This document shows, piece after piece, positions 13,065 to 26,198 of a stretch of DNA of 28,965 bases. Numbering within the stretch: the stretch's first letter is position 1; every line of letters begins with the position of its first letter. The DNA lies in IMG/VR virus record IMGVR_UViG_3300031758_000424, positions 1-28,965 of that record; one strand, 5' to 3'. Position numbers and translations under genes: made by a program. The DNA comes from a virus. The notes below the pieces were generated by a model. The model was not told the origin of the DNA. It saw only the letters and a list, made by a program, of their open reading frames with translations, and did no database searches.

Positions 13065-13448
13065 ATGAAATATTTAAAATATTTTGAATCAAAAAAAGTT
13101 AAATTTCCTGACATCAAAAAAATAGAAGTTGATGGTTATTTAATAATGGTTGGTCGAGACGCTAAATCTAATGACTTTTTAACCTTTAATACAGCAGAAG
13201 ATGAAGATATATGGATGCATGTCAAAGGCGTTCCTGGAAGCCATGTTGTAATTAGAGTCAGAGAAAATTTACCAACACCTGAGATATTGAAATATGCTGC
13301 GGAATTAGCTAAAAAAAATAGCAAAGCTGCTAAAGAGCCATCTGTAAAAGTTGTATATTGTCAAAGAAAGTTTGTTAAGAAGGAGCCAAATATGAATGAT
13401 GGTCAAGTAAAAGTTGATTATCTAAATTCAGAAGAAATAACAATTTGA
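13065..13448 (+). CDS. Stand-alone NFACT-R domain protein (RqcH/NEMF-related)
   Basis: 127 residues. The NFACT-R domain (formerly DUF814) is the RNA-binding part of RqcH/Rqc2/NEMF, which act on stalled large ribosomal subunits. Matches: GRDAKSNDFLTFNTA (30-44), DEDIWMHVKGVPGSHVVIR (46-64), EILKYAAELAKKNSKA, VVYCQRKFVKKEPN and a final DGQVKVDYLN. Cellular RqcH is about 550-600 residues with extra NFACT-N, HhH and coiled-coil parts. Here only NFACT-R is present. The N-terminus MKYLKYFE|S resembles a capsid-targeting peptide, so the protein may be packaged and injected. It could mimic or block host ribosome quality control. That role is inferred. It is the first gene after the capsid terminator, with a promoter motif 5 bases before its ATG. 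Confidence 0.85.
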   Translation: MKYLKYFESKKVKFPDIKKIEVDGYLIMVGRDAKSNDFLTFNTAEDEDIWMHVKGVPGSHVVIRVRENLPTPEILKYAAELAKKNSKAAKEPSVKVVYCQRKFVKKEPNMNDGQVKVDYLNSEEITI

Positions 13449-13449
13449 A

Positions 13450-13460
13450 TTTAATATATA
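13450..13460 (+). promoter_or_regulatory. Putative late promoter (TTTAATATATA), 4 bases from ATG
   Basis: Exact motif, then CATT, then ATG at 13465. Identical spacing is seen at 19797, 20902 and 26183. Confidence 0.55.
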
Positions 13461-13464
13461 CATT

Positions 13465-15000
13465 ATGAATTTATTAAAATATAGTCAAATATTTGAAGCT
13501 GGTACACAAAGTGTAGTTGACCAGGCTAAAGATTACAAACCAAGTGGTGGTTACAAAAGCAAAGAAGATGTCTTTGATGAATCAAAAAATGTTGATAGAT
13601 CTGCTAGAATAAAAATATCTTCTGAATTAGAGAAAGTTCTTAAAAAAATGGAAGACAATGATAGTTATCTTGCTTTTGAGATGCTTTGGTTAGGTGAGTC
13701 TGATTCTAAGTACCAGAATGGTTTAGGTATAACTGATGTGACTATTTCTAATAAACCTTATTGTTTTGAAGTAACTATTGGTGGTAAAAAATTTGATATG
13801 AAGATTGGTAAATTTTTCAGATATTATTGGCCAGGATTATTAACAGAAGATGAAATTAAGTCATTCATATATCAATATAATGATATGACATCTGATAATA
13901 TTGGCGATGAATCAATTACCTCAGCTCAAAGAATAAAGGTTCCTGAGTTTTCGTATAATCCTAAAGATGTTAAAGCAACTTTTCTTTCATTAACTACAAA
14001 AACATATCCACATTTTGATGATTGTAGACATGAAAAGGAAGTTTTAAAATTTTTACCATCTCTTGAGAGAGACCAAGTTGGAAATTATTATAAAATAATT
14101 GGTTCTGAAAAACCAACAATAATGTTTACTTGTCATTTAGATACGGCTGATAGAGAACAAAAAACGACAAAATTATTTCAAGTCAATGGTCGAGTAGTTG
14201 AAGAAGGTTATTCATTTAGATTGATAAAAAGTGGAACTGGTGATGAACATATCTATACCGACGGCTCTTCAATATTAGGCGCTGATGATAAAGCTGGTAC
14301 TGCTGTTATGTTATATATGATGGCTAATAATGTTCCAGGTATTTATTACTTCTTTATTGGTGAAGAGAGAGGTGGTATTGGTTCTAATGCTCTTTCATCT
14401 ATTTATGATAGATGTGATTATCTAACTGATGTAAAAGCTTGTGTTTCTTTTGATAGAAGAAGGACAACATCTGTTATAACACATCAATTAGGTAGACAAT
14501 GTTGTTCTAACGAATTTGGTCAGGCTTTGTGTGATGAATATAATAAAAATGGATTAAATTTATCATTAGATCCAACTGGTGTTTATACAGATTCCGCGTC
14601 ATTAATGGAGGACATACCAGAATGTACAAATATATCAGTTGGTTATTATAATGAACATAGAGGAACAGAAATGCAAAATATTTCTTACCTTAAAAGATTA
14701 GCTGAAGCTTCGGTAAAAGTTGATTGGAATAAACTTCCAATTAAAAGAAAAGTTGGTTATAATGAAGAGTTATTTGCTAAGCATAAAAGCATGATTAATG
14801 AGATAAAAAAGAATGTCTTTGGAATTGATGTTAAAGTTGTTGGTAAAGATGATAGAATCTTTGTTAGTTTAGACTTAGAAGAAACCGATATGGGTGAAAT
14901 TTATGATGCTCTAATTAGAGTACAAACAATATTAAACAAATATAAAATAGAGGATTTAGGATTCTTTGATGAGACATATTTTAAAATAGAATTGAAATAA
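13465..15000 (+). CDS. M20/M28/M42-type metallopeptidase with packaging-like N-terminus
   Basis: 511 residues. The C-terminal two thirds is a di-zinc aminopeptidase/deacylase domain. HLDTAD (H224, D226) gives the first metal ligand, LGADDKAG (271-278) the bridging Asp, IGEERGGIGS (298-307) the catalytic and metal Glu pair, TGVYTDSASL (371-380) a metal Asp, and GYYNEHRGTE (393-402) the last metal His. All key residues are present. The ~170-residue N-terminal region is not part of the peptidase, is not recognised, and starts MNLLKYSQIFE|AG, which fits a capsid-targeting peptide with an I-x-E cut. The substrate is unknown. If packaged, the enzyme would act in the host cell just after DNA entry, or on scaffold-derived peptides in the head. 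The next gene starts 1 base after its stop. Confidence 0.85.
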   Translation: MNLLKYSQIFEAGTQSVVDQAKDYKPSGGYKSKEDVFDESKNVDRSARIKISSELEKVLKKMEDNDSYLAFEMLWLGESDSKYQNGLGITDVTISNKPYCFEVTIGGKKFDMKIGKFFRYYWPGLLTEDEIKSFIYQYNDMTSDNIGDESITSAQRIKVPEFSYNPKDVKATFLSLTTKTYPHFDDCRHEKEVLKFLPSLERDQVGNYYKIIGSEKPTIMFTCHLDTADREQKTTKLFQVNGRVVEEGYSFRLIKSGTGDEHIYTDGSSILGADDKAGTAVMLYMMANNVPGIYYFFIGEERGGIGSNALSSIYDRCDYLTDVKACVSFDRRRTTSVITHQLGRQCCSNEFGQALCDEYNKNGLNLSLDPTGVYTDSASLMEDIPECTNISVGYYNEHRGTEMQNISYLKRLAEASVKVDWNKLPIKRKVGYNEELFAKHKSMINEIKKNVFGIDVKVVGKDDRIFVSLDLEETDMGEIYDALIRVQTILNKYKIEDLGFFDETYFKIELK

Positions 15001-15001
15001 T

Positions 15002-15571
15002 ATGAAAATAAAAACATTTATAAAATATTTAGAAAATATCAGAGAAGATGAATTTAGTCATCTAAACAATGGTCTTTCTGCTAATAAAAAAAATGAAGCA
15101 CGTTGGCCAGAAGATGATTATGAGTATGATGATGATTCTACTAAAGATTATGGTGAGTATGATGATTGGTATGATGATGAAGACGATAAATACTATTCTG
15201 GAAAAAAATCATCAAATCCGAAGTTTGATGATGATGATGATGATGATTATGGATATGATGAAGATGATGAAGATGATGATGTTCAGCATTTAACTTATTT
15301 ACTTCGTCAAATGTTTAGAAATTCAGGAGTTGATAATGTGCAAATTACCGCTAAAAGAAATGAAGACATTGTAATAGAGGTTCATATGGCTAAAAAGGAA
15401 ACATTAAGAAATGTTATCAAAGTTTTCGAAGTCGCTAACAAACTTAAAAGAGATATTTTAGCTCAATATGATGCTGAATTTGACATTTGGCAATCAAAAT
15501 CTGGTGGTGGGATACTTTCATTTGGTTTTACTTTAGATGAAGGCTTAGATGATGATACAATGCCTTTCTAA
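15002..15571 (+). CDS. Highly acidic protein with packaging-like N-terminus
   Basis: 189 residues. It begins MKIKTFIKYLE|NIRED, similar to the other packaging-type N-termini. Residues ~36-95 are dominated by Asp/Glu/Tyr, including runs of seven Asp, and are followed by a compact basic-acidic domain (about 96-180) with HLTYLLRQMFRNSGVDNVQITAK and GGGILSFGFTLDEG. No family recognised. Strong negative charge is a hallmark of DNA-mimic inhibitors of nucleases and DNA-binding proteins, and of scaffold proteins. Either is possible. It is co-transcribed with the peptidase, and a further small gene follows after 12 bases. The Asp-rich stretch is coded by repeated GAT, making an unusual low-complexity DNA tract. 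Confidence 0.75.
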   Translation: MKIKTFIKYLENIREDEFSHLNNGLSANKKNEARWPEDDYEYDDDSTKDYGEYDDWYDDEDDKYYSGKKSSNPKFDDDDDDDYGYDEDDEDDDVQHLTYLLRQMFRNSGVDNVQITAKRNEDIVIEVHMAKKETLRNVIKVFEVANKLKRDILAQYDAEFDIWQSKSGGGILSFGFTLDEGLDDDTMPF

Positions 15572-15583
15572 AAAATAAATAAT

Positions 15584-15859
15584 ATGAAATACATTAAATT
15601 ATTTGAAAGTTTTAACAACGATAAAGTTAAATATTTTGTAAATAGAGTTGGTAGCCACTTTAGAATATTCGCACTCACTCCAAAAATGATGGCTGATGGT
15701 CTAACTTATAAAGATGCTGAAGACGCTGAAGAATTGTTTGGCAAAGGTTCTCTTTGGACAAATTATGACTCTTATGAAGAAGTTGAAAACATTATAAAGA
15801 GTTTAGACTCTGATGAATATGAACCTGAAGAAGGTGATTCTCCTGATGTATTTAATTAA
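15584..15859 (+). CDS. Small protein with packaging-like N-terminus
   Basis: 91 residues beginning MKYIKLFE|SFNND; L-F-E|S fits the (L/I)-x-E rule. The rest is acidic, with YFVNRVGSHFRIFALTPKMMADG and a C-terminal tail EYEPEEGDSPDVFN. No family recognised. The operon position, 12 bases after the acidic protein and 3 bases before the next gene, suggests joint expression with the other tagged proteins. Confidence 0.7.
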   Translation: MKYIKLFESFNNDKVKYFVNRVGSHFRIFALTPKMMADGLTYKDAEDAEELFGKGSLWTNYDSYEEVENIIKSLDSDEYEPEEGDSPDVFN

Positions 15860-15862
15860 ATA

Positions 15863-16261
15863 ATGAGATATTTAACAGATTTTAAATTTTTTGAATCAAT
15901 AGATTCTGATGTTAGTGAGATTATTAATGATATTACTCCTATTGTTAATGATATTTTATTAGAATTGAATTTTAAAAATATTGAAGGTGAGTCTCGATTT
16001 GTAAAAGTTGGTAATAGAAAAGGTCCTAATGGTTATTATATAATAATTAAACTTAAAAAAGAATCTCGTGAATTAACTTGGAATGAAGTTAGTGATGTTA
16101 TAGGTGTCGTTTCTGATTATTTAAAAGATAATAAGTTTCTATATAGTTCAGAGAAGACGAAGTATTGGGGAACTGGTGTTGCCTTTGATAAGCCAAACTC
16201 TCAATATAATGCTGGTGAGTGTAGAATGGACATATATTTTAAATATGAAGATAATATCTAA
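15863..16261 (+). CDS. Small protein with packaging-like N-terminus
   Basis: 132 residues beginning MRYLTDFKFFE|SID. The body alternates helices and strands (IVNDILLELNFKN, YYIIIKLKKESRELTWNEV, CRMDIYFKYE). No family recognised. Last protein gene of the 13465-16261 unit, just before the tmRNA. Confidence 0.7.
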   Translation: MRYLTDFKFFESIDSDVSEIINDITPIVNDILLELNFKNIEGESRFVKVGNRKGPNGYYIIIKLKKESRELTWNEVSDVIGVVSDYLKDNKFLYSSEKTKYWGTGVAFDKPNSQYNAGECRMDIYFKYEDNI

Positions 16262-16280
16262 ACTTTTTTGTATTTTATAA

Positions 16281-16291
16281 TATTATATATA
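16281..16291 (+). promoter_or_regulatory. Putative promoter of the tmRNA gene (TATTATATATA)
   Basis: TATTATATATA followed by CATTTG, 31 bases before the mature tmRNA 5' end. It resembles the recurrent promoter motif. The bases between would be a leader trimmed by RNase P. Confidence 0.45.
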
Positions 16292-16322
16292 CATTTGTAG
16301 AAATAATTACAATATAAACTAT

Positions 16323-16697
16323 GGGGATGTTTTTTAGTATAGATTCATAGAGTAGTGGTGATTATGCAGGTGTCGGATGGTCAAGTAACCGACTAATAAA
16401 TTTGGTGGCAAAAAGTCGTAAATGGCAAAACAAATGAAGTAGCATCCCGTGAAGATTTAGTAGCGGCGTTACAAAACAACATGCTTAAGGCAGAAGAGCT
16501 ATCTTTAGTTTAATCTTTTAAGCTTTCGAAAAAATTCTCCAGCTGAATCACACAGTTAAAAATGTGAAACCAGAATTGTTAGAGTGATGGGTTGTTCAAC
16601 TAACTATTTTGTAAGTTTCGAAAAACTTTCTAAGCCTGTGAATGAATAATTATTGTTAACTAGGGAAGACACGATGGGCAGTACATCGTCATCTCCA
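16323..16697 (+). ncRNA. ssrA: tmRNA (transfer-messenger RNA), phage-encoded
   Basis: The ends form the tRNA-like acceptor stem: GGGGATG (16323-16329) pairs with CATCTCC (16690-16696) over 7 bp. The third pair is G-U, the alanine identity mark found in all alanyl tmRNAs, and A16697 is the discriminator. GATTCATAG follows the 5' stem where E. coli has GATTCGACG. TGCAGG (16364-16369) can pair with CCTGTG (16635-16640), matching the E. coli P2 helix in position. GTCGG/CCGAC (16372-16376/16389-16393) forms the first stem of a pseudoknot before the reading frame. AAAAGTC then GTA gives the resume codon, as UAGUC-GCA does in E. coli. Oddities: the 3' end reads ACTA rather than ACCA, and the T-arm has a 6-bp stem with loop GGCAGTA instead of TTCRANY. 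A terminator follows directly. Confidence 0.85.
16418..16513 (+). other. tmRNA tag reading frame (31 codons)
   Basis: From the resume codon GTA to TAA at 16511-16513 the frame encodes a peptide starting VNGKTNEVASRED and ending LKAEELSLV. The start resembles the bacterial tag style (AND-ENYA or G-K/E-TN). The C-terminus is Leu-Ser-Leu-Val instead of the ALAA-type end read by ClpXP, and the tag is about three times longer than usual. The resume codon is assigned by analogy with E. coli. Entry at GGC, two codons later, would not change the C-terminus. Confidence 0.75.
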
Positions 16698-16705
16698 CTA
16701 AAATT

Positions 16706-16729
16706 AAGTCCACAAAAGTGGACTTTTTT
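16706..16729 (+). terminator. Terminator of tmRNA gene
   Basis: AAGTCCAC and GTGGACTT form a perfect 8-bp stem around AAAA, with a run of T after it. It begins 9 bases after the tmRNA discriminator base. Confidence 0.88.
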
Positions 16730-16750
16730 GTTTTATATAGTATAATAAAT

Positions 16751-17236
16751 ATGACTATTGAGCAATTTAGAGGTAAATATTATTTTTTATCAAATTTTTA
16801 TGAATCAAAAATTGAATTTCAGGGAATTACCTATCCTACAGTTGAGCATTTTTATGTTGCTATGAAATCTAATTCGGATCAAATGTTAAATGGAAAATAT
16901 TATACATCGGCTGACTTTAGAGAAATGATTTCTAAAATAAAAGAACCAGGTGTGGTAAAAAAAATAGGTCAAAAAATAAAAGTTCGCAAAGATTGGTCTG
17001 AAAAAAAAATTGAAATTATGAATTTTGCAATCAGAGAAAAATTCAAAGACGAAAATCTCGCAGAACTACTAAAGTTGACGGGTGATGCTAAAATTGTCGA
17101 GGTCAATTTATGGAAAGATACTTTTTGGGGCGTCTTCAATGGTAAAGGCGAAAATCATTTAGGTAAAATATTAATGAAAGTAAGAGATGAAATCAACGGC
17201 ATACAAAAAACCGGATTAGAACAAATATTAAAATAA
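16751..17236 (+). CDS. NADAR (YbiA-like) N-glycosidase family protein
   Basis: 161 residues from the ATG at 16751. An upstream TTG would place the start inside the terminator. Family marks: FRGKYYFLSNFY (6-17), YPTVEHFYVAMKS (28-40), and the C-terminal WKDTFWGVFNGKGENHLGKILMKVRDEI. NADAR proteins cleave N-glycosidic bonds. Members have been shown to remove ADP-ribose from guanine in DNA, reversing DarT-type toxins, and others act on riboflavin intermediates. In a phage, counter-defence against DNA ADP-ribosylation is the most attractive role, but this is inferred. It has no packaging-like N-terminus, so it is probably made after infection. It is 9 bases from the methyltransferase gene and likely co-transcribed. 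Confidence 0.85.
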   Translation: MTIEQFRGKYYFLSNFYESKIEFQGITYPTVEHFYVAMKSNSDQMLNGKYYTSADFREMISKIKEPGVVKKIGQKIKVRKDWSEKKIEIMNFAIREKFKDENLAELLKLTGDAKIVEVNLWKDTFWGVFNGKGENHLGKILMKVRDEINGIQKTGLEQILK

Positions 17237-17245
17237 AAATAAAAC

Positions 17246-18187: not shown

Positions 18188-18417
18188 TGGCTGTTAAACT
18201 TCAACCTAATGTATTTAATGTGAATAGTTCATCTGGTGATTCTGTTCTTAGAATAGAGCCAGATGGATATTGTGTCATAACTAAATTAGCGCTCTTAGAT
18301 GATGTAACCGGTAATAAATGGGAAATAAAAATATCAAATGGTGAATTAATAGTTGAGCCGATTGAATTAGAAGATAAAAGAGAATATAAACTTAATAAAG
18401 TACTTAAAAATGATTGA
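18187..18417 (+). CDS. Small hypothetical beta-rich protein
   Basis: 76 residues. The middle (NVFNVNSSSGDSVLRIEPDGYCVITK) alternates short strands and turns, resembling the shaft-start segments seen at the N-termini of some phage fibre proteins, but it is too short to assign. It shares 1 base with the methyltransferase stop and 8 bases with the next gene, and sits in the 16751-18742 operon. Confidence 0.65.
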   Translation: MAVKLQPNVFNVNSSSGDSVLRIEPDGYCVITKLALLDDVTGNKWEIKISNGELIVEPIELEDKREYKLNKVLKND

Positions 18418-18742
18418 ACATTTAGATAGAATTGAAAAGTTAGGTTTTACAATAAATTTAAATTGGAATAAATCAATTGATATTATTTATGACACTGAAC
18501 GACCATTGGATTTTAGAATTCTATTTTGTGGATATGATTCGTTTTTAGAACCATCATTTGAAGATATAGTTGAGACTACCTGTGATTTCTTTTATATGTG
18601 GTATAATAAAAATTTAGAAACTCTAAAAGACTACGAATTTGATACAACAGACTCAAATTTTGATAAATTGATTGATACTGGTTTAGGTGATATTACTAAA
18701 CAAGTCTACAGAGATTTTAATTTAGATAATTTATTAGACTAA
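18410..18742 (+). CDS. Hypothetical protein
   Basis: 110 residues, acidic (many Asp), soluble, with no recognised motif. Its start overlaps the preceding stop, and its end overlaps the end of the converging nucleotidyltransferase gene by 4 bases. No terminator separates the two converging units. Confidence 0.65.
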   Translation: MIEHLDRIEKLGFTINLNWNKSIDIIYDTERPLDFRILFCGYDSFLEPSFEDIVETTCDFFYMWYNKNLETLKDYEFDTTDSNFDKLIDTGLGDITKQVYRDFNLDNLLD

Positions 18743-19797
18743 GAATTGACTTTATTGTAAAGTTCTAAATATATTTCTTTACAATTTTGTTGAGTTAATT
18801 TTCTTAGCATACTCTCTGACTCTTCGCTTGACAACCATCTTTTGTATTTAGAAGTGTCTGTTCCTTCAAGTTTAGCATTTTGTTGAAGATAATATTTTAA
18901 AGTTTCGTATAAACTATATCTCAGATTTTGTCTATATATTGAGTCTAATCTTAAGCCAAATTTATTTTTCAATTGTTCAAAAGAGGTAGTAGGGTTATTC
19001 ATTACTTGGTCAATTTCATGTCTGCTAATTTTGAATACTGAATACATTGGCATTTGAACTCGTTGAATTTTTAAAAATTTATTAGTTTGTAGTTTTATAG
19101 GTGTTGAAGTTCCTATAACAATTCCTTCAATTGGTGATACTTTATCAACTACAGACACAATTACTTCATCTAGTAAATCACCTATCATATCTTTTAGTTT
19201 ACCTACTTTATAATCGTCTTTAAAAGTCATTGATATGAATTCATTTCTTAAACCACCTTCCCAAACTTTTTTGAAATCTTCAAAGGCTTGATTTTTATTG
19301 ATATTAATTTTGATATCTTTTTTTGTCAATAGTTTTATTCCTGTATTTAATTTTTTTCTTATTTCTTCTGCCAGCTCCTCAGATAGATTACCAGTGTATT
19401 CAATGTATATTTTATCTACATTTTTATATTGTATGTAATCGTGATTAGAACGAGGATTTAGTATCTCAAATCCCCAAGTTTGATCTGGTAACTTTTGGTT
19501 GGCAATTATGTCTATGAGTGGTCTAGTGATGTCTGATCCCCATCTTGAGTGTGATGCATTTCTTCCAGATTGCCCTGATAAAATTTGGTCTTTTGTATTT
19601 ACCATGACAAAATTATCTTTAATTGTTACGGTAAGATGTTGTCCAGCTATTTTTTCGGTTATATCTATATTTTTAGAATTGTATAAAAATTGGTCTACAA
19701 AATCAACTATATCACCTACACTCGCGTTTCTAAATCTAGTAGGACTTACTGTATTCTCTAATATTAATTTGAATTCTGAAAATTTCTTTATAATCAT
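18739..19797 (-). CDS. Ligase-like covalent nucleotidyltransferase with packaging-like N-terminus
   Basis: 352 residues. The motif order fits the DNA/RNA ligase and capping-enzyme superfamily: motif I EKIAGQHLTV (48-57, K49 the likely AMP-accepting lysine), SGRNASHSRWG (77-87, motif Ia-like), WGFEIL (108-113, motif III), IEGIVIG (223-229, motif IV) and FLKIQR (241-246, motif V). Motif I reads K-x-A-G, not K-x-D-G, which is unusual. The C-terminal ~100 residues are helical and would bind nucleic acid. Whether it seals DNA or RNA cannot be told. The N-terminus MIIKKFSEFKLILE|N matches the packaging-type peptide. A ligase delivered at infection could repair host-inflicted nucleic-acid cuts. That is inferred. 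Its ATG lies 4 bases from a TTTAATATATA motif. Confidence 0.7.
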   Translation of the reverse strand: MIIKKFSEFKLILENTVSPTRFRNASVGDIVDFVDQFLYNSKNIDITEKIAGQHLTVTIKDNFVMVNTKDQILSGQSGRNASHSRWGSDITRPLIDIIANQKLPDQTWGFEILNPRSNHDYIQYKNVDKIYIEYTGNLSEELAEEIRKKLNTGIKLLTKKDIKININKNQAFEDFKKVWEGGLRNEFISMTFKDDYKVGKLKDMIGDLLDEVIVSVVDKVSPIEGIVIGTSTPIKLQTNKFLKIQRVQMPMYSVFKISRHEIDQVMNNPTTSFEQLKNKFGLRLDSIYRQNLRYSLYETLKYYLQQNAKLEGTDTSKYKRWLSSEESESMLRKLTQQNCKEIYLELYNKVNS

Positions 19798-19801
19798 ATT
19801 A

Positions 19802-19812
19802 TATATATTAAA
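19802..19812 (-). promoter_or_regulatory. Putative late promoter (TTTAATATATA), 4 bases from ATG
   Basis: On the minus strand: TTTAATATATA, then TAAT, then the ATG at 19797. It lies in the 37-base divergent gap shared with the Nudix gene at 19835. Confidence 0.55.
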
Positions 19813-19834
19813 TATTTTTTTGTATATTTGAATT

Positions 19835-20404
19835 ATGAATACTAAATTCTCAGGTGGTGGTATATTACCAATTGTTAAGATAAATGACGACTTATACTTT
19901 TTAACATTTGGTTCAAAAAGAGGAGTTTTATCAGATGCTGGTGGAAAATGTGACTTTGGGGAAAGTATTGAAAAAACTTGTGTCAGAGAGTTTTATGAAG
20001 AAAGTTGTAAGTTATTTGACATAAGTGTATCTGATATATCCAATCATAAATTTATTAATATTAATGCTGGTCGGACTTTCTATAGAAGTTATTTGCCTTT
20101 TTTCAAGTTCGATATATCTCAAAATTTATTTTCTAAAAATAGAAATATTTTAAAATCAAATAAGTGTTCTTATCAATTTTTAGAAAAAAGTGAAATGATA
20201 TTAGTTCCTGTAAATTCCAAATTTGAGAGGCTGAATTCAAATTCAACTAAAATCTATACTACACAAGATATATCTGGTCAATTGCGATTAGTAAATAGAA
20301 GGCTTTATAAATTAATTAGAGATTTCCAAAAATCAAATATAAATACTGAAGAAATAATTTTAGAGAAAAAAAAATTAGGTGGATTAGTAACTTACTCAAA
20401 ATAA
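19835..20404 (+). CDS. Nudix hydrolase
   Basis: 189 residues. The Nudix box begins at G37: G-x5-E43-x7-R51-E52-x2-E55-E56, read in GKCDFGESIEKTCVREFYEE. The last box glycine is replaced by Cys. The fold cleaves nucleoside diphosphates linked to another group. The substrate (ADP-ribose, NAD, dNTP, capped RNA or others) cannot be told. There is no packaging-like N-terminus, unlike the second Nudix protein at 23376. Monocistronic, ending at a bidirectional terminator. The 37-base spacer upstream also carries TGTATATTTG, which may be its promoter. Confidence 0.82.
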   Translation: MNTKFSGGGILPIVKINDDLYFLTFGSKRGVLSDAGGKCDFGESIEKTCVREFYEESCKLFDISVSDISNHKFININAGRTFYRSYLPFFKFDISQNLFSKNRNILKSNKCSYQFLEKSEMILVPVNSKFERLNSNSTKIYTTQDISGQLRLVNRRLYKLIRDFQKSNINTEEIILEKKKLGGLVTYSK

Positions 20405-20436
20405 AAAACCTTTGAATTGAATCAAAGGTTTTTTTA
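20403..20436. terminator. Bidirectional terminator
   Basis: AAAAAACCTTTGA pairs with TCAAAGGTTTTTT around a 6-base loop, with T-rich sequence after it. It lies between the converging Nudix gene and the minus-strand gene ending at 20438. Confidence 0.88.
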
Positions 20437-20437
20437 T

Positions 20438-20839
20438 TTATTTTTTCCAACTTGGAACAAACTTATCAGAGTATTTTCGAGTGTATGCGATATTTGGTCT
20501 TTGGTGTTTACGCGATGGATAGTTAGGACTTCCTATAGCTCTTCTAATAAGTGGTCTCATAGAGTCATGTATATGCATACTTAAGTCATCCCAAACCTCA
20601 TCTTGATTTCGGTCACCTTCTGGTACATATCCGAATTGTTGCATAAATTCTTCGATATGGTCTATTGTATAAAAAAGATCATGTAGAGCTGTATCAGATC
20701 CGGAATCTGCAATTCTATCAATTTCTGCAAACATTTTATCAGCCGATTCTCTGTTACTCTCAGTTCCTTTACCAAATCCTGGTGAGTAGAAGTGTTTGGT
20801 TGTATCTTCACTTTCATTAAATCTTTTTAAATGTTTCAT
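20438..20839 (-). CDS. Protein with packaging-like N-terminus
   Basis: 133 residues beginning MKHLKRFNE|SED. The centre is helical and acidic (ADKMFAEIDRIADSGSDTALHDLFYTIDHIEEF), and the C-terminus is basic (PSRKHQRPNIAYTRKYSDKF). No family recognised. A single gene between a bidirectional terminator and a promoter motif 23 bases upstream of its ATG. Confidence 0.7.
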   Translation of the reverse strand: MKHLKRFNESEDTTKHFYSPGFGKGTESNRESADKMFAEIDRIADSGSDTALHDLFYTIDHIEEFMQQFGYVPEGDRNQDEVWDDLSMHIHDSMRPLIRRAIGSPNYPSRKHQRPNIAYTRKYSDKFVPSWKK

Positions 20840-20862
20840 AGTTTCATTTTTTTTTTATAAAG

Positions 20863-20873
20863 TATATATTAAA
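20863..20873 (-). promoter_or_regulatory. Putative late promoter (TTTAATATATA)
   Basis: Exact motif on the minus strand, 23 bases before the ATG at 20839 with an A-rich leader between. Confidence 0.5.
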
Positions 20874-20886
20874 TTAAAATCTTATT

Positions 20887-20897
20887 TTTTATATATA
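20887..20897 (+). promoter_or_regulatory. Putative late promoter (TTTTATATATA), 4 bases from ATG
   Basis: TTTTATATATA, GATT, then ATG at 20902. The string ATATATAGATTAT is shared with the major capsid promoter region. Confidence 0.5.
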
Positions 20898-20901
20898 GAT
20901 T

Positions 20902-23376
20902 ATGAAATTTATAAGAGATTTTTCCAAATTTAGAGAATTAAGAATCAATGAGGCTTTAGAGTCGGGTCAGTTTTTAGCTTACCATAGAACAAGATTAGTC
21001 GAACAAAGTTATATAGTCAATGTAGAACCTGATCCAAATGTAAATTTTTATCAACAATTTGCTGAGTCTATGATTTTTGGTTTAACTAAAAATACAAAAG
21101 AGTATCAATTAGCAATCAGTAACAATATTAAATTACTAAGTGATATGAATCCCGATATCAAATTGGATGATAGAGGTTTTCCAATAGTTAAAATAGGTGA
21201 TAAAATTACAACACAGGATCCAAGAATAATTTCTCAAGGTTTCAGAGCAGGTGCAGGAGATTTTTATGGTGTTGGTTTGTATACTTGTTATGAGTTTGAT
21301 GATCAGATTAGAGACTTTGATGGTGATGGTAAACCTGATATGAGAGGATATGGACAAAATATTGTTGAATTTAGAGTCGATAACACTGGTAAATTTTTAA
21401 TACTTGATATGACTGAAGGAAATAATCAAGCAAAAAAAGTTTGGGGAGCTAATCACACACTTATTGACCAATTGAAAAAAATAATGGGTGGTAAGTTTTT
21501 AAATTTCTATAATAAGAATAAAGAACTACTGAATGGTTTTAACGAAATCTTAGTAAAGACAAAAGTAACAACTCCAGGTGGTTTTGTTGAAGAGTTAGAA
21601 AAGGACAAAAAGGGTAGATTTTTGACTGGTCCGATTGCTCTAAGATTGTGTAAAATGGATGGATTTATATCATTAGTTGATGGTATTTCATTTACAGGTG
21701 GTAATGATGGAAGAGTATTGGTCATTTATGATGCAGACTTGGCTAAACCGACAAGATATACATCAGATGATGGGAGAACTTGGAATCCAATGTCTAAGTT
21801 AGAGTACCAATACGAAAGAGTAAGAGTGGGTAATAAAGACATTCTTCAGTGTAAAATCATAGACAATGATAAAGAGTTGATACAAATAGACCCGAATAGA
21901 CCGGTTCAATGGATAAAAAGTTTGGATATTCCATCAATTCTCAAAGATAGTGAAAAGACGGTCAAACTTTTTTCACGTATAAACATTTCAAGTATTGGAT
22001 CAAAGAAGATATTTACTGAATTGATTTCGGATTTATCAAAGAGCAAACCACAGGTATTAGATAATATTATAAAAAGACTCTATGATTTACCTTTAACAGA
22101 TAGAAATTTAGAAAAAAGTGAATTTATAAATTATTTATCTAATCTGATTATTTTTTTATTAGAGTTTGTAAAAATGTCTGGTCAAAAATCAGATTTGCTC
22201 AAAAAGAAAATTGAACAAATATGTGAGTATTTTTCTAAAAATAGTGAAGACATTTCATTTCCAATCTCAGTTATAACATCTATCTATTCTGAAATAGAAG
22301 GAGGTAGTGAAAGTGTTGAAAAATTCAGAGAAGTATTAAAAAATAATTTTTTAAAATCTCATGAATTATATTCTGAGACTTCTGAATATGACGGTGATGT
22401 ATTTGTTAAAATGTTAAATGAAATGAAAATTTTACCAAAAGAAGTTGTTGATAAAAAAATTGACGATTCCTTAGATAAATTATCAAAATTATTAATTAAT
22501 ACAGAATTGACGGACTCGAACCCAGATTTCTTAGGTACAACTACAAATGCGAAAAGATTCAATTTAGTAGATTACAAATTGAGTCCTTTTAAAAGGTTTA
22601 CCTATTTGATGACTTTTAGTTTTGATGGATTGGCTCAAAAATATATTGATGTTTTTTGTAAATTGTTACAAAAAAAATTAATTGTATTTCATAAAGGATT
22701 TAATCGACTGTATGACTATCGAGCTGATAAAAAAGCGAGTTTCTCTTCTTTAAATTTGATAGAGTGCTTTAAACAAACTCCTACTGATTACACAGGAAAT
22801 AATCTAATTATAAAAGTTATATCTAATCCAAGTAGGCTTAATGATGAATCCGTGGACATAATTGCTGATGCTATAATTTTATATTTAATTGCAATGAAAG
22901 AGGAGCATATTGGTCGAGGTTCAATCAAGGGTCAAAATTTTGTTATTGATATAATAAAAGGAAATAAGATATTTGATAGAATTAAAGAAAAATTATTAAA
23001 GTTAAAAAATGGAGAAAAATTGGAAATATCAGGGGAACAATTGAGATTTGGCTTCGGAGTAGTTTATAGTGAGTTCTCTAAATATGTCAAGCTTGGTGAA
23101 GAATTCGAACCAGATTTGGACTACGACTACATAGCCGATAGAATATTTAAATCTATGTATGGACCAAGTTACAAAAAAGATGAATTATTTGATAAAATGT
23201 CTGAATTAAGAAACGATAAAGATTTGCAAAAAGTAAAATTAGCCTTTGGTAAAAGAAAGGGAATGATAGGTAAAGAATATGATTTAGATTATTGGATTAA
23301 AGACGAACTCAGTAAAGATGATTTACAAAAATTGAACAACATATTAAAAGAAAAAGGAATCAATTATCAATTCTAA
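20902..23376 (+). CDS. Large putative ADP-ribosyltransferase with packaging-like N-terminus
   Basis: 824 residues. It opens MKFIRDFSKFRELRINE|ALES, a packaging-type peptide with an I-N-E cut. Directly after comes FLAYHRT (24-30), then GDFYGVGLYTCYEF (119-132). A His in a Y-H-x-T strand followed by G-x-G-L-Y-T is the pattern of the H-Y-E class of ADP-ribosyltransferases. H28 and Y127 would be the first two catalytic residues. I cannot place the third (E/Q) with confidence; the domain probably ends near VLVIYDADLAKP (about 275). The remaining ~540 residues are helical, without motifs I know. T4 packages and injects the ADP-ribosyltransferase Alt, so this could be a functional counterpart. The next gene's ATG shares a base with its stop. 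Confidence 0.6.
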   Translation: MKFIRDFSKFRELRINEALESGQFLAYHRTRLVEQSYIVNVEPDPNVNFYQQFAESMIFGLTKNTKEYQLAISNNIKLLSDMNPDIKLDDRGFPIVKIGDKITTQDPRIISQGFRAGAGDFYGVGLYTCYEFDDQIRDFDGDGKPDMRGYGQNIVEFRVDNTGKFLILDMTEGNNQAKKVWGANHTLIDQLKKIMGGKFLNFYNKNKELLNGFNEILVKTKVTTPGGFVEELEKDKKGRFLTGPIALRLCKMDGFISLVDGISFTGGNDGRVLVIYDADLAKPTRYTSDDGRTWNPMSKLEYQYERVRVGNKDILQCKIIDNDKELIQIDPNRPVQWIKSLDIPSILKDSEKTVKLFSRINISSIGSKKIFTELISDLSKSKPQVLDNIIKRLYDLPLTDRNLEKSEFINYLSNLIIFLLEFVKMSGQKSDLLKKKIEQICEYFSKNSEDISFPISVITSIYSEIEGGSESVEKFREVLKNNFLKSHELYSETSEYDGDVFVKMLNEMKILPKEVVDKKIDDSLDKLSKLLINTELTDSNPDFLGTTTNAKRFNLVDYKLSPFKRFTYLMTFSFDGLAQKYIDVFCKLLQKKLIVFHKGFNRLYDYRADKKASFSSLNLIECFKQTPTDYTGNNLIIKVISNPSRLNDESVDIIADAIILYLIAMKEEHIGRGSIKGQNFVIDIIKGNKIFDRIKEKLLKLKNGEKLEISGEQLRFGFGVVYSEFSKYVKLGEEFEPDLDYDYIADRIFKSMYGPSYKKDELFDKMSELRNDKDLQKVKLAFGKRKGMIGKEYDLDYWIKDELSKDDLQKLNNILKEKGINYQF

Positions 23377-23867
23377 TGATTAAAACATTTTCACAATTTA
23401 TTAAAGAATCTAAAGATTGGAGTAATTCAGTTACTGCTGTCATTGCTCTTTTCAATAAGAGTGGTCAATTATTAGCACTTAAAAGAGGAATGACTGCTCC
23501 TTGGAAACCAGGACACTGGAATATTACTGGTGGTGTGGTTGGTGACCATAATCTTGATGAAAAACCAAAAGAAGCTGCTTTAAGAGAGGTTTTAGAAGAA
23601 ACAGGGTTAACGCCAACAAATGTTCAAGATTGGGGTGTGATTGATACAAAAGGTCATCCAGATTCTGCTTGTGGATTTATTTATTATTTTACTGGCAAAG
23701 TTGATAGTTTACCTACCTCATCAGACGGTGAAAATTCTGAGTGGAAATTTGTAAATAAAGAAGATTTAGATAGAGTTTACTGGGTTCCTTTTTTAACAGA
23801 TTTTACTGGATGTGACTTATCCGGTGCAAAGTTTAAGAAATCTTTTCTACACGAAGTTTGGTCTTAG
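23376..23867 (+). CDS. Nudix hydrolase with packaging-like N-terminus
   Basis: 163 residues with a fully canonical Nudix box, G56-x5-E62-x7-R70-E71-x2-E74-E75-T-G-L, within GDHNLDEKPKEAALREVLEE. The upstream strands (AVIALFNKSGQLLALKRG) and WKPGHWNITGG are typical of small nucleotide-processing Nudix enzymes. It starts MIKTFSQFIKE|SKDW, close to T4 internal-protein leaders. It overlaps the preceding gene by 1 base, so it is made together with the putative ADP-ribosyltransferase. An ADP-ribose or NAD-related substrate is thus an attractive guess, no more. Confidence 0.87.
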   Translation: MIKTFSQFIKESKDWSNSVTAVIALFNKSGQLLALKRGMTAPWKPGHWNITGGVVGDHNLDEKPKEAALREVLEETGLTPTNVQDWGVIDTKGHPDSACGFIYYFTGKVDSLPTSSDGENSEWKFVNKEDLDRVYWVPFLTDFTGCDLSGAKFKKSFLHEVWS

Positions 23868-24127
23868 AATAGTTTTTGTAATTTAATTTTTAAATCACCG
23901 CTACCCTTTATCAACCTATGAAATACACCTTTTGGTATAGTGATTTCCCCAGAAATTATTTTCGGTAGTTCATTATCAATTTGTATCATCCAATCTGTAT
24001 CTTTAATAGATTCAATTATACGATTTTCGTAATCTCTGTGCCACATGAACTCTCCAGAATCTGTTTCTTGATTAAATTCTCTGATAAAAGTATTATCTGA
24101 TATTTTAGTTTCTTTGAAAGGTAACAT
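23864..24127 (-). CDS. Small cupin-like protein
   Basis: 87 residues. The pattern FMWHRDYENR, then WMIQIDNELP, then ISGEITIPKGVFHRLIKGSGDLKIKL is a compact single cupin-type barrel with two conserved His (in WHRD and FHR) that may bind metal. Similar small proteins occur in many large phages without known function. There is no packaging peptide. Its start shares one base with the stop of the gene upstream, and its stop overlaps the converging Nudix gene by 4 bases. Confidence 0.65.
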   Translation of the reverse strand: MLPFKETKISDNTFIREFNQETDSGEFMWHRDYENRIIESIKDTDWMIQIDNELPKIISGEITIPKGVFHRLIKGSGDLKIKLQKLF

Positions 24128-24615
24128 TATTTTGTTATTAATTTTTCACCATCAAAATATCCGTAATTAAACTTTACTGGTATGTTACCATTAGAAAATT
24201 CTTGATAATTGTCCAGTAAATCATTTTCAATTGTGTCTATGCTAACTCTTCTTTCGGACGATATTTCACCAAATTCTGATTTAGGCATTGCTAATAAAAA
24301 ACATCCTAATTGATTTCTATGTGGAGAGATACCATCAATCATATTAGAAAGTAGAGTGTAAAGATTTGATTTATTAGTTATGGCTGTTGTGCCACTAAGT
24401 CCAGTGCCTAAATTGAATTTAAACTGTGTTTCAAATATACTTTTTGCAAATTCTGGTGAAGTTACATGTGTTAGGTAGTGATTTGAATCAGGTAAAGAAT
24501 CTATTTTAGATTTTAATTCTAATTTTAGTAAATCTCTACTAAAATTTTCCACATCTTTAGATTCTATTATTGGAAAATTAAAATTATATTCAGTATATGT
24601 TTTTAAATGTTTCAT
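24127..24615 (-). CDS. Protein with packaging-like N-terminus, possibly ADP-ribosyltransferase-like
   Basis: 162 residues from the ATG at 24615. A longer frame from 24663 exists, but the internal start gives the MKHLKTYTEY leader common in this region and begins 4 bases after the upstream stop. The leader ends PIIE|S. The body has YLTHVTSPEFAKSIFETQF, then GLSGTTAIT, and ends IPVKFNYGYFDGEKL. H-x-T-S followed by a G-x-x-G-T-T element loosely recalls small ADP-ribosyltransferase folds. The match is weak, and no full catalytic triad can be set out. Confidence 0.6.
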   Translation of the reverse strand: MKHLKTYTEYNFNFPIIESKDVENFSRDLLKLELKSKIDSLPDSNHYLTHVTSPEFAKSIFETQFKFNLGTGLSGTTAITNKSNLYTLLSNMIDGISPHRNQLGCFLLAMPKSEFGEISSERRVSIDTIENDLLDNYQEFSNGNIPVKFNYGYFDGEKLITK

Positions 24616-24619
24616 AATT

Positions 24620-25606
24620 TTACCAATAACCAGGATAAGTTTTACCTCCCCAAAGATGTCCATATTTATTTACCCTACAAGCCCAGTATCCGGCTTTAGT
24701 TTTATCTTTCTTAGTTGAGCATTTATGACGAGCTGCAAAGTTTCTTCTCGCTTCGGGATTACTTACTTTAGCTGTTAAACCACCGTGTACATCACCAAAA
24801 GCAATCTTTTTCACGTTTCCTGTTTTAGGATTTTTAACATATACATAGTATTTTTTAGTGCCGCCACGCATTGGATAGTTTAACTTAACTTCTTTTCCTT
24901 TATATTCAGCTTCTGATAAAAATTCAACATTTTCCATAGTCAAATCTAGAGGAACTAACTCTCCGTTAAACCAACCGAATTTACCTATTTCTGTACTTTC
25001 ATAGATTTCTTTGTCTATTTCACATAATTTAACTTTACCTGAATCGAATAATTGGCGAGCCTCTTTAATAACACTAAAGAATGCCTCTGAACCAGGTCTG
25101 AAAATATTTTCAGTTATTGGTTTATTTTTTTCTAAATGATATTTTAGACTTTCAGAAAAAAGAATATTCACAAATTCTGATGCTTTTTTGATATTATCGT
25201 CAGAATCACATTTACAATCTGCGCAACCACAATAACAATTATCCTCACCTGTACATGAATCACAACATCCACAACCATTTATTTCACTTTCTTCATAATC
25301 CGAATCTATTTCTAATTCATCTTGTAAGTCATAGTCATTTTCACATTCAATATTATCAACATGATCAATATTTACTGTGATGAAGGACTCAAATTTTTCA
25401 ATTTTATCTTTATTTTTTTTGAATTCCTTTTCAACTTTCTCTTGTTGTTCAACTGAACTTTTGAAACCTGGTTTTTCTTCATCTCTCTTCAATGAATCAG
25501 CTTTAAATTTAATTTCAATATCTTTTTCTTTTTTAGATTTTTTCTCTTTATTATCCGAGATATTTAAATTTTTAGCAGCATCTTTGAATTTTTTTATTTC
25601 TTTCAT
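24620..25606 (-). CDS. Cys-rich phage protein with conserved C-terminal domain
   Basis: 328 residues from the ATG at 25606. A TTG two codons earlier is less likely. Start MKEIKKFKDAAKN is a weaker version of the packaging-type leader, without an obvious I-x-E cut. There is a basic, charged stretch, then nine Cys within residues 112-133 (CGCCDSC...CYCGCADCKC), likely a metal-binding cluster. The C-terminal ~95 residues contain KKYYVYVKNPKTGNVKKIAFGD, then ARHKCSTKKDKTKAGYWACR. I recognise this as a domain widely found in T4-like phages of marine and other bacteria, without established function. It heads the minus-strand run 24620-23864. Confidence 0.7.
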   Translation of the reverse strand: MKEIKKFKDAAKNLNISDNKEKKSKKEKDIEIKFKADSLKRDEEKPGFKSSVEQQEKVEKEFKKNKDKIEKFESFITVNIDHVDNIECENDYDLQDELEIDSDYEESEINGCGCCDSCTGEDNCYCGCADCKCDSDDNIKKASEFVNILFSESLKYHLEKNKPITENIFRPGSEAFFSVIKEARQLFDSGKVKLCEIDKEIYESTEIGKFGWFNGELVPLDLTMENVEFLSEAEYKGKEVKLNYPMRGGTKKYYVYVKNPKTGNVKKIAFGDVHGGLTAKVSNPEARRNFAARHKCSTKKDKTKAGYWACRVNKYGHLWGGKTYPGYW

Positions 25607-25614
25607 AATCAATA

Positions 25615-25824
25615 TTATTTTTTTTGAAACATATTATCTAAAACTTGATACATAGCGTCTATTACTCCATAAGAGTCAATTCCAAATTGACCTGTATATT
25701 TATCTACGATTTGCATCATATCTTTTTCTAAACTAGACCATTTGTCTTTTTCTTCAGTTTTTCTATTATTTTTTAGAACTTCATCCCAGTCAAATTCTTC
25801 GTTAAACTTTTTTAGATGTTTCAT
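25615..25824 (-). CDS. Small protein with packaging-like N-terminus
   Basis: 69 residues beginning MKHLKKFNE|EFDWDE. Helical and acidic, with WSSLEKDMMQIVDKYTG and VIDAMYQVLDNMFQKK. No family recognised. Its start overlaps the stop of the gene at 25821 by 4 bases, which indicates coupling. Confidence 0.68.
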   Translation of the reverse strand: MKHLKKFNEEFDWDEVLKNNRKTEEKDKWSSLEKDMMQIVDKYTGQFGIDSYGVIDAMYQVLDNMFQKK

Positions 25825-26183
25825 TTTTCGTTTATTTTTTTAAGCACTTCTGCGCATTTTTCGAATTCTTCTTGTGATTCTAATTCTTTAAGATAGTTTC
25901 TCAGTTGATTTCTGTCACATAGCTCTAATTTTAATTTAAATCTTATGTCAACAACGTCTTTCATATCTTTTGCTGTATGGTCTATTATTTTATTCACAAT
26001 ATCTCTGTCAAATGGTGACATTTTTTCAAAATCTGACCAGTCATAAATTTGATTATCATTGAGAAAATTTAAAATATTTGTCAATGCGTCTTGTACTCTA
26101 TCTGATTTAGATTTAGATTTTTTTTTGATTTTTTTAAAAAATTCTTCATTAATAAAGTTCATATACGTATTTAACCTTTTCAT
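25821..26183 (-). CDS. Small protein with packaging-like N-terminus
   Basis: 120 residues beginning MKRLNTYMNFINE|EF, one of the clearest matches to the T4-type leader with an I-N-E cut. A lysine-rich stretch (KKIKKKSKSKS) follows and then helices (DALTNILNFLNDNQIYDWSDFE). No family recognised. First gene of the minus-strand unit 26183-23864, with the promoter motif 4 bases upstream of its ATG. Confidence 0.7.
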   Translation of the reverse strand: MKRLNTYMNFINEEFFKKIKKKSKSKSDRVQDALTNILNFLNDNQIYDWSDFEKMSPFDRDIVNKIIDHTAKDMKDVVDIRFKLKLELCDRNQLRNYLKELESQEEFEKCAEVLKKINEK

Positions 26184-26187
26184 TTAT

Positions 26188-26198
26188 TATATATTAAA
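26188..26198 (-). promoter_or_regulatory. Putative late promoter (TTTAATATATA), 4 bases from ATG
   Basis: On the minus strand: TTTAATATATA, ATAA, then the ATG at 26183. It shares a 67-base divergent spacer with the promoter of the large virion gene. Confidence 0.55.

Follow-up and report, generated by a model that had tools for sequence, protein, structure and literature searches.

A short Glu-ended leader shared by unrelated proteins of T4-like huge phages, a probable capsid-targeting sequence

The window analyzed here, the entire 28,965-nucleotide stretch of the IMG/VR virus record IMGVR_UViG_3300031758_000424, encodes a T4-type head gene set (portal, gp21-type protease, and major capsid protein, with matches to phrog_207, phrog_138, and phrog_213). 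The capsid protein shares 75% identity with its counterpart in the huge phage LR745206 and 53% with the one from the 735-kb phage LR756501, which places the window in a T4-like huge-phage lineage. The huge phages of this lineage are uncultured. Thirteen further genes begin with a related N-terminal leader of 8 to 18 residues (an arrow marks the junction at its end):
4040..5761, plus strand: portal protein; TTTAATATATA upstream, ATATATA at 4008-4014
9090..11180, plus: gp21-type head maturation protease with a fused scaffold-like repeat region; ATATATA at 9053-9059
11265..12989, plus: major capsid protein; ATATATA at 11227-11233
13065..13448, plus: NFACT-R domain protein (PF05670, 1.5e-17); leader MKYLKYFE↓S at 13065-13088, ATATATA at 13053-13059
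13465..15000, plus: M28-like peptidase (phrog_4191, 9e-66; Pfam M28 only below cut-off); leader MNLLKYSQIFE↓A at 13465-13497, ATATATA at 13454-13460
15002..15571, plus: acidic protein (acidity read from the sequence); leader MKIKTFIKYLE↓N at 15002-15034
15584..15859, plus: small protein without assigned function; leader MKYIKLFE↓S at 15584-15607
15863..16261, plus: protein without assigned function; leader MRYLTDFKFFE↓S at 15863-15895
18739..19797, minus: protein without assigned function; leader MIIKKFSEFKLILE↓N at 19756-19797, ATATATA at 19800-19806
20438..20839, minus: protein without assigned function; leader MKHLKRFNE↓S at 20813-20839, ATATATA at 20863-20869
20902..23376, plus: 824-aa protein without assigned function; leader MKFIRDFSKFRELRINE↓A at 20902-20952, ATATATA at 20891-20897
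23376..23867, plus: Nudix hydrolase (PF00293, 6.7e-16); leader MIKTFSQFIKE↓S at 23376-23408
24127..24615, minus: protein without assigned function; leader MKHLKTYTEYNFNFPIIE↓S at 24562-24615
24620..25606, minus: phrog_7595 protein without assigned function; weak leader MKEIKKFKD at 25580-25606
25615..25824, minus: small protein without assigned function; leader MKHLKKFNE↓E at 25798-25824
25821..26183, minus: protein without assigned function; leader MKRLNTYMNFINE↓E at 26145-26183, ATATATA at 26188-26194

All 13 starts, which a preliminary description of this DNA had grouped by their common leader, are in-frame ATG codons of the genes concerned, with that at 24615 being an internal ATG of an open reading frame (24127-24663) that could begin at 24663. 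The gene at 25606 is a doubtful member, since it lacks Glu at the expected site. A scoring matrix trained on 11 of the window leaders gave leave-one-out scores of 6.8 to 23.3 (6.8 for 13465 and at least 10.9 for the other ten), and the two leaders left out of training, 20902 and 25606, scored 11.2 and 11.1. A second matrix was rebuilt from 129 matches in LR745206; it is not independent, because those training genes were found with the window matrix. By this second matrix the 13 genes ranked 1 to 13 among 34 rows, made up of the 33 called genes and the start at 24615, with 12 of the 13 scoring at least 10 against a shuffling expectation of 0.14 for the window. The thirteenth, 25606, scored 9.9; the next-ranked genes scored 8.9 (8514) and 4.3. 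Neighbors said to lack the leader indeed do not score as leader genes: NADAR (PF08719, 2.9e-25), a D12 methyltransferase (PF02086, 8.4e-14), the gene at 19835 (a weak Nudix PHROG match, 0.0018, and no Pfam match), and the gene at 23864, whose cupin label is unconfirmed by any Pfam match. Among the bodies behind the leader, the NFACT-R, Nudix, peptidase, and acidic assignments were borne out by Pfam, PHROG, or sequence, but no support was found for a ligase-like body at 19797 or an ADP-ribosyltransferase-like body at 20902.

The family thus stands, but not as a local one. When the leader profile was searched across relatives, as had been proposed, the window matrix found 129 of 890 genes in LR745206 (5.4 expected by shuffling, 1.4 from internal Met positions) and 75 of 963 in LR756501 (5.4 and 3.6), which for these two complete genomes amounts to one gene in roughly 7 to 13. 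The corresponding figures were 156 of 1,185 for IMG/VR loci (7.8 and 6.9) and 44 of 559 against 4.0 for the first 400 kb of LR756504; some of the genes counted in LR745206, LR756501, and the IMG/VR loci are orthologs of window genes. Each smaller phage examined had 0 to 3 genes above the window-matrix threshold, and phiKZ had 1 of 342. At the threshold used, none of 32 structural genes had the leader, and of 24 replication or metabolism genes one did.

The usual forms of the leader are MK(Y/H)LKxF(N)E↓S and MKYLKxYKxFE↓S. In LR745206, relative entropy reached 3.5 bits at the Glu, fell to 1.2 one residue on, and stayed at or below 0.2 from there; matrix selection raises the values as far as the residue after Glu but not the later drop. 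Glu occupies the site in 126/129, 73/75, and 146/156 leaders, a count for which the matrix itself selects. When genes in LR756504 were instead selected on the first block alone, Glu within five residues showed no clear excess (15 of 27 against 12.5), although the broader site was enriched (22 against 9.3); the same selection in LR756501 left just 6 genes and no excess of the site (2 against 1.8). The NFACT-R gene, which adjoins the capsid gene, keeps the junction Glu in all 33 anchored homologs, the window included, while their leaders differ in sequence and length. The leader is also modular: among 60 peptidase homologs, 8 (the window included) carry it, and 52 homologs and paralogs do not, a distribution that also counts against a capsid-targeting role. 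Together, these data support a modular, Glu-ended peptide conserved at the protein level.

In T4, the capsid-targeting sequence (CTS) is carried by the internal proteins IPI, IPII, and IPIII and by the Alt propeptide, and gp21 cuts it at L/I-x-E. The huge-phage leader resembles it in being short, N-terminal, borne by unrelated bodies, and ended by Glu, and in the presence of a gp21-type protease gene in the same phage. Relatives of this protease were found in all 10 records searched, each chosen for a related capsid protein; its scaffold-like region (residues 231 to 696) contains 24 [LI]xE sites. In passages of a review (PMC9026906), the targeting residues of IPIII are given as hydrophobic or aromatic at positions 4 and 7, and loading of various proteins by CTS is suggested for T4-like phages. 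A hydrophobic residue at 4 with an aromatic at 7 occurs in 95/129 and 32/44 leaders, compared to 30/699 and 22/481 other genes, in two of the three huge phages, although the matrix used for selection favors this pattern. By eye, the window leader closest to T4 MKTYQEFIAE↓A is that of the Nudix hydrolase at 23376. A looser T4-type pattern is common to the huge-phage leaders and two of the three T4 internal proteins. It has few matches in smaller T4-like phages, some in head or neck clusters: one in MA9V-2 sits between an annotated capsid assembly protein gene and the prohead protease, and one in P-SSM2 lies near the gp13-gp15 neck genes.

We consider it probable that the leader is a T4-type capsid-targeting sequence which, in these huge T4-like phages, is carried by genes across much of the genome. 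That dozens to over a hundred mostly unrelated proteins in some of the largest known phages start with a peptide built like the T4 head-loading tag suggests a large protein cargo carried with the DNA. Tagged proteins would be made late in infection, alongside head proteins; the leader, with its hydrophobic and aromatic residues three apart, would bind the prohead scaffold core and carry the protein inside; and the gp21-type protease would cut after the final Glu to release a mature protein. That protein would remain in the head with the DNA, at least some of the cargo may enter the next host with the genome, and a counterdefense role is conceivable there.

Several observations run against this assignment. 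Only 51/129, 25/44, and 41/75 leaders (40 to 57%) have the strict T4 motif L/I-x-E where the site was scored; P3 is hydrophobic in 106/129, 34/44, and 65/75 and is often Phe, Tyr, or Thr. In LR756501 the register is shifted, with the 4/7 layout in only 15/75 leaders versus 56/798 other genes. As for the likeness to T4 first proposed, the head system, the Glu-ended modular peptide, and an upstream element shared with head genes are in place, but the window matrix did not recover the T4 internal proteins (0 of 241 T4 genes scored at least 10; IPI scored 5.6), so that architecture alone matches, not the window sequence profile. Another P-SSM2 match of the T4 type is an annotated cytidyltransferase amid metabolism genes. 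Injection is not an obvious fate for a tagged DNA primase (phrog_849, 7e-27) or for tagged proteins with DHH, Toprim, sigma-70, and kinase-like matches. Finally, the same review (PMC9026906) calls T4 internal proteins basic, whereas tagged proteins in LR745206 have a median net charge of −0.046 per residue, more acidic than the −0.020 of other genes. The leaders thus depart from the T4 CTS in looser P3 and acidic cargo, and where T4 has a handful of tagged genes, the two complete genomes have 129 and 75.

Some of these features could instead fit an N-terminal address that sends proteins to a membrane, to a compartment made by the phage inside the cell, to a protein hub, or to degradation, acting late without head loading and with Glu as a binding motif rather than a cleavage site. 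The leader is short and amphipathic-looking (mean helical-moment z of 0.8 to 1.1 above shuffled leaders), about half of the leaders lack the strict T4 motif, and the tagged genes outnumber the head proteins of one giant phage, SPN3US (about 50, from the part of PMC5694885 available). We nevertheless regard such an address as unlikely. Conservation stops sharply one residue past Glu, the T4 layout is matched in two of three genomes, and the looser T4-type matches include some in head or neck clusters. The capsid protein of the same phages also contains a conserved SINE↓N, with the junction behind residue 43 (the Glu encoded at 11391-11393 in the window), which may be its propeptide end. In addition, leader genes and head genes have the same upstream element. 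ATATATA lies within 60 nt upstream of 50/53 major capsid protein, 55/55 protease, and 11/14 portal genes, and of 23/32 structural versus 5/24 replication or metabolism genes. Among leader genes with at least 20 nt upstream, it precedes 54/59, 27/31, and 26/32 (81 to 92%) in three huge phages, compared to 115/373, 51/298, and 126/388 comparison genes.

Another reading is that the shared start is itself a DNA- or RNA-level unit, either a mobile promoter together with the opening codons or a region for translation initiation, of which copies stand before many genes. Promoter-like TTAATATATA does lie at a fixed distance, 14 to 19 nt before the leader gene in 28 of 43 LR745206 cases, and some codons are skewed (TTT for Phe-7 in 50/57, against 0.70 genome-wide). 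Against this, leader codons vary synonymously, with Lys, Tyr, His, Leu, Glu, and Asn broadly matching genome usage; orthologous leaders change in length and residues around a constant Glu junction; members of the element family also stand before capsid genes that have no leader; and TTAATATATA is found at just 8 of the 70 LR745206 leader genes with an upstream gap below 20 nt. Such an origin is highly improbable. Equally improbable is ordinary paralogy, with tagged genes as diverged copies of one ancestral family: LR756501 does have a cluster of 13 linked leader genes and only 56 clusters for 75 bodies (67 to 74 in random sets), but the 129 bodies of LR745206 form 119 clusters (125 to 128 in random non-leader sets) and the 44 of LR756504 form 43 (phmmer E 1e-3 throughout), unrelated Pfam families stand behind the leader, and the same body occurs with and without it. 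By these comparisons the bodies appear mostly unrelated to one another, and the LR756501 deficit may be due in part to a DPYGEExW peptide common to many linked leader genes; this second motif, DPYGEE mostly followed by xW, is on 87 proteins of the 735-kb lineage.

Capsid targeting by the leader would have partial precedents beyond T4. CTSs are discussed for SPN3US in PMC5694885. Head and inner-body proteins of phiKZ and SPN3US also carry propeptides; a distantly related gp21 homolog processes the head proteins behind a Glu, and some of them are ejected into the host. SPN3US differs in having several propeptides longer than 100 residues, A-x-E as its motif, and a set of eight cleaved head proteins. 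Delivery of many conflict-related enzymes with DNA was advanced as an idea for jumbo-phage polyvalent proteins and injected factors (Iyer et al. 2021, PMC7824862); there, the domains belong to large multidomain proteins, the available portions mention no common short leader, and the main text contains no occurrence of "N-terminal signal," "N-terminal peptide," or "N-terminal motif." Similarly, "inject" and "leader" do not occur in the main text of the paper reporting the huge genomes. Among the literature matches listed, given mostly as title or start of abstract and with subscription papers and bioRxiv preprints largely outside their scope, we found no description of such a leader in the T4-like huge-phage group.

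A broader reading, which we put forward tentatively, is that the largest known phages may use a genome-wide sorting code. If a cleavable head address is present on about one gene in 7 to 13, the frequency counted in the two complete genomes, the virion would deliver about a hundred different proteins at once, acting against host defense before any phage gene is expressed and including RNA-repair, CCA-adding or poly(A)-polymerase-like, Nudix, and nucleotide-signal enzymes. If true, a sizeable share of the unknown genes of huge phages would be virion cargo readable from sequence, a partial answer to their unexplained coding capacity. Exact mature N termini would be predicted for mass spectrometry, and lists of hypothetical proteins would become ranked candidates for antidefense and takeover factors. 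The finding would also show the extent to which the T4 head-loading trick can be scaled up.

The preliminary description had named 13 genes in the window whose products begin with a short peptide (leader) ending in Glu. All 13 starts are present in the sequence and take ranks 1 to 13 among the 34 window rows under a matrix rebuilt from matches in LR745206, a huge T4-like phage related to the window, so the gene list was almost exactly right; 25606 (-), a gene with a weak leader, is its one doubtful entry.

The head genes of the window are T4-like: besides a portal (phrog_213) and a major capsid protein (phrog_138), they encode a head maturation protease (phrog_207) to which a long repeat region is fused. 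By tblastn, the capsid protein matched LR745206 (635 kb) at 75% identity, LR756502 (642 kb) at 74%, LR756501/LR756503 (735 kb) at 53%, LR756504 (636 kb) at 52%, and LR756500 (462 kb) at 35%; PTm1, Chryseobacterium, and Lak phages came next, each at <30%. These capsid matches place the window with uncultured huge phages; PMC7162821, which described these genomes, gives 634, 636, 642, and 735 kb for its largest complete ones. A 111-kb IMG/VR record (G001) encodes a capsid protein 100% identical to that of the window and carries the window's leader genes. Near the head genes, a glutamine synthetase gene lies at 602-1675 (-) of the window (PF00120, 3.9e-20; PF03951, 3.4e-8), and a protein similar to it by eye is encoded at a comparable place in LR745206.

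Because the window's own record is only a 29-kb fragment, relatives were used for leader counts. The window matrix, trained on 11 of the 13 leaders with two left out, consists of an A block ending in Phe/Tyr and a B block (P3-P2-Glu-P1'), applied at a threshold score of ≥10; controls were shuffling of residues 2 to 30 in each protein and internal Met positions. Leaders were detected on 129 of 890 genes in LR745206 (shuffled, 5.4; internal Met, 1.4), 75 of 963 in LR756501 (5.4 and 3.6), 44 of 559 in the first 400 of 636 kb of LR756504 (shuffled, 4.0), and 156 of 1,185 distinct genes at IMG/VR capsid-flanking loci (7.8 and 6.9; set L005-L081, reduced to distinct first 60 residues). False positives are expected to number about 5 each among the 129 and the 75, so individual proteins require checking. 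No 40-kb segment of LR745206 was empty (2 to 18 leader genes each), and in G001 two matrices placed the leader on 16 to 18 of 108 genes, with 10 of the 16 listed falling in the window stretch. The leader is also found outside the window, throughout the genome in relatives; it is genome-wide and not confined to the stretch in which it had been described. Genes were called on separate pieces as ATG ORFs of ≥60 aa under a greedy overlap rule, which misses GTG/TTG starts and genes across piece ends. Chance and start-codon bias are ruled out by the shuffles and internal-Met controls.

Elsewhere, the window matrix matched 0 of 241 genes in T4, 0 of 100 in crAss001 (100 of 103 kb covered), and 0 of 39 in Lak (41 kb, translated with the standard code); 1 of 165 in HTVC008M (140 of 147 kb), 3 of 296 in P-SSM2, 1 of 232 in Cr30, 1 of 342 in phiKZ (280.0 of 280.3 kb), 1 of 132 in MA9V-2 (∼122 of 219 kb), and 1 of 298 in PTm1 (∼20 kb counted twice in two overlapping pieces). 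Coverage of G003 was 120 of 249 kb. Base composition was rejected as the cause, as neither PTm1 (30% GC) nor crAss001 showed an excess. A short T4-type pattern occurred in 12 genes of LR745206, 4 of LR756504 (400 kb), and 18 of LR756501 (shuffled, 0.4, 0.0, and 0.15). In T4 itself it picked out 2 genes, which are two of the three internal proteins; P-SSM2 and MA9V-2 gave 2 matches each and Cr30 gave 1. The five remaining phages scanned (crAss001, HTVC008M, phiKZ, PTm1, and Lak) had no match. The MA9V-2 matches lie between an annotated capsid assembly protein gene and the prohead protease, and between a head completion gene and an annotated DNA end protector gene. In P-SSM2, one match adjoins a gene for a virion structural protein in the vicinity of gp13-gp15, and the second, annotated as a cytidyltransferase, sits amid metabolism genes. 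The neighbors of the Cr30 match are all hypothetical except for one annotated signal peptide motif.

Conservation ends abruptly behind the leader. Aligned on Glu, relative entropy in LR745206 was 3.5 bits at Glu, 1.2 at the next residue (Ser in 58, Asn in 18, Glu in 15, and Ala in 12 of 129), and ≤0.2 thereafter; profiles were similar in LR756504 and LR756501, with the second residue reaching 0.4 and 0.3. The matrix selects for Glu and its neighbors, not for the entropy drop behind them. Selection on the first block only gave 82 genes in LR745206, of which 77 had Glu within 5 residues (41.1 with the rest shuffled). LR756504 gave no clear excess for Glu (15 of 27 versus 12.5), although the broader site was in excess (22 versus 9.3), and LR756501 yielded just 6 genes (Glu, 5 versus 2.0; broader site, 2 versus 1.8). 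Leader codons broadly match genome codon usage, which argues against DNA-level copying as the cause; constraint therefore acts on the peptide.

Paralogy is very unlikely to account for the shared start, as the bodies in LR745206 are mostly unrelated: 129 formed 119 clusters (phmmer, E 1e-3), compared with 125 to 128 for random non-leader sets. The same threshold gave 43 clusters among 44 bodies in LR756504 (random, 41 to 43) and 56 among 75 in LR756501 (random, 67 to 74). In the NFACT-R gene adjoining the capsid gene (13065 in the window), Glu ends a leader of 8 to 13 residues in all 33 anchored homologs, window included, with Ser or Gly directly following in 32; one anchored ORF (L046) begins upstream of its leader, and of 43 homologs, 10 had no anchor and were excluded, 7 of them starting with a leader-like peptide and 3 not. 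Of 60 homologs and paralogs of the downstream peptidase (13465), 8 bear the leader; many copies that occupy the same position begin without one. Such a pattern would be expected of a detachable address.

The leader genes also share an upstream element. In relatives, ATATATA lies within 60 nt upstream of head genes in most distinct regions (major capsid protein, 50/53; protease, 55/55; portal, 11/14). Among genes with ≥20 nt upstream, it preceded 54 of 59 leader genes versus 115 of 373 others in LR745206 (Fisher P = 2e-19), 27 of 31 versus 51 of 298 in LR756504 (4e-15), and 26 of 32 versus 126 of 388 in LR756501 (8e-8); denominators differ between our two tallies of upstream gaps because the gap sets differed slightly. 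The contrast was weaker in smaller contigs (7/7 versus 31/54, 13/15 versus 50/99, and 3/3 versus 29/65; P = 0.04, 0.01, and 0.1). With PTm1 genes as queries, ATATATA preceded 23 of 32 structural and 5 of 24 replication/metabolism genes (P = 3e-4), where 4 structural rows rest on PTm1 gene position instead of annotation and 3 query proteins are cut by stretch ends. None of the 32 structural genes scored as a leader gene, and 1 of the 24 others did (RtcB of LR756501, a poor leader). Tagged genes thus share the control region of head genes, yet are not recognized structural genes. The element is a putative late promoter. The T4 late promoter TATAAATA was not enriched (4 of 129 leader genes versus 29 of 699 others). 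TTAATATATA is also found upstream of a uvsX-like gene. Before LR745206 leader genes it falls into only two distance classes, 14 to 19 nt (28/43) and 29 to 44 nt (15/43) from ATG; were it a promoter, mRNAs from the near class would be almost leaderless.

A further peptide, DPYGEE, occurs in 101 copies in 87 of 963 genes of LR756501 (L120-L156), followed by xW in 96 copies and encoded by varied synonymous codons. It lies within 6 residues of the C terminus in 36 of the 87 proteins, is commoner among leader genes (23/75 versus 64/888), and looks like a second protein tag. Called genes in the remaining phages of the analysis lacked it, and it was present in at least 80 IMG/VR stretches (L265-L344), some with many copies; DPYGEE genes without a leader showed no ATATATA enrichment (6/18). 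The prohead protease domain occurs in an additional short copy (L120:11314-11850, -) that ends in DPYGEExW, as does a fragment that looks by eye like the capsid protein end (L127:5891-6127, +).

Most tagged cargo has no named family. Pfam (E 0.001) assigned, among the 129 tagged LR745206 proteins, two Nudix, Sa_NUDIX, a poly(A) polymerase/CCA-like head, a T4-type RNA ligase, a nucleotide cyclase, NFACT-R, DHH, Toprim, and an M15 peptidase, and a 2H phosphoesterase (2_5_RNA_ligase2) joined to a DEDD exonuclease; this 2H protein falls below the Acb1 family cutoff. PHROGs added DNA primase (7e-27), single-strand DNA binding protein, and endolysin-like matches. Tagged LR756501 proteins include CoaE, RtcB (weak leader), methyltransferase, sigma-70, and dNK, among others in the 25 of 32 families listed. 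Among the PADLOC matches were DRT-associated NUDIX, effector families, and a weak PycC. Nucleotide cyclase domains (PF00211) occur in LR745206 (L114:8558-9244, +), where the protein bears the leader, and in HTVC008M (13229-13792). For window genes 20902 (+) and 19797 (-), the sole relatives retrieved, where there were any, were contigs carrying a copy 100% identical, and for 24615 (-) there were no relatives; PDB sequence searches gave weak matches only (E 0.01 to 1), and single-sequence predicted structures of 19797 and the first 353 residues of 20902 averaged pLDDT 33.

The leader is most likely a T4-type capsid targeting sequence (CTS). The observed basis is the leader, its modular spread, the protein-level constraint, the shared control element, and the protease gene. 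According to a T4 head review (PMC9026906), targeting by the 10-residue T4 leader depends mainly on residues 4 and 7 and processing on 8 and 10, and gp21, the head protease, cuts after L/I-X-E. A hydrophobic residue at 4 with an aromatic at 7 was found in 95 of 129 leaders in LR745206 and 32 of 44 in LR756504. In LR756501, where the form MIKKFxxFE is frequent, just 15 of 75 leaders had this pair. The capsid proteins hold Glu-terminated sites (SINE|N, IHE|N, and MNE|N) that are putative cut sites, and the scaffold part of the window protease fusion has 24 [LI]xE sites versus 11.9 when shuffled (shuffle maximum, 22). This part (9090-11180) contains near-identical repeats of type YSEYIAENLDKNIA with [LI]AE sites, and both LR745206 and LR756501 contain partial matches to the repeat at other places. 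Counting against the CTS reading, strict L/I-x-E ends only 51 of 129, 25 of 44, and 41 of 75 leaders (LR745206, LR756504, and LR756501), and the tagged proteins, instead of being basic, are acidic. The observation in the preliminary description is thus confirmed and extended, whereas its interpretation, that these are internal head proteins delivered with the DNA, is supported only in part. Under a CTS mechanism, tagged proteins would be made late in infection, the leader would bind the prohead core and be cleaved by the protease, and the cargo would be packaged in the head and ejected. The same review suggests that a CTS may let T4-like phages load various proteins; the case here would be a much larger one, and it is its scale that sets it apart from known T4-type targeting.
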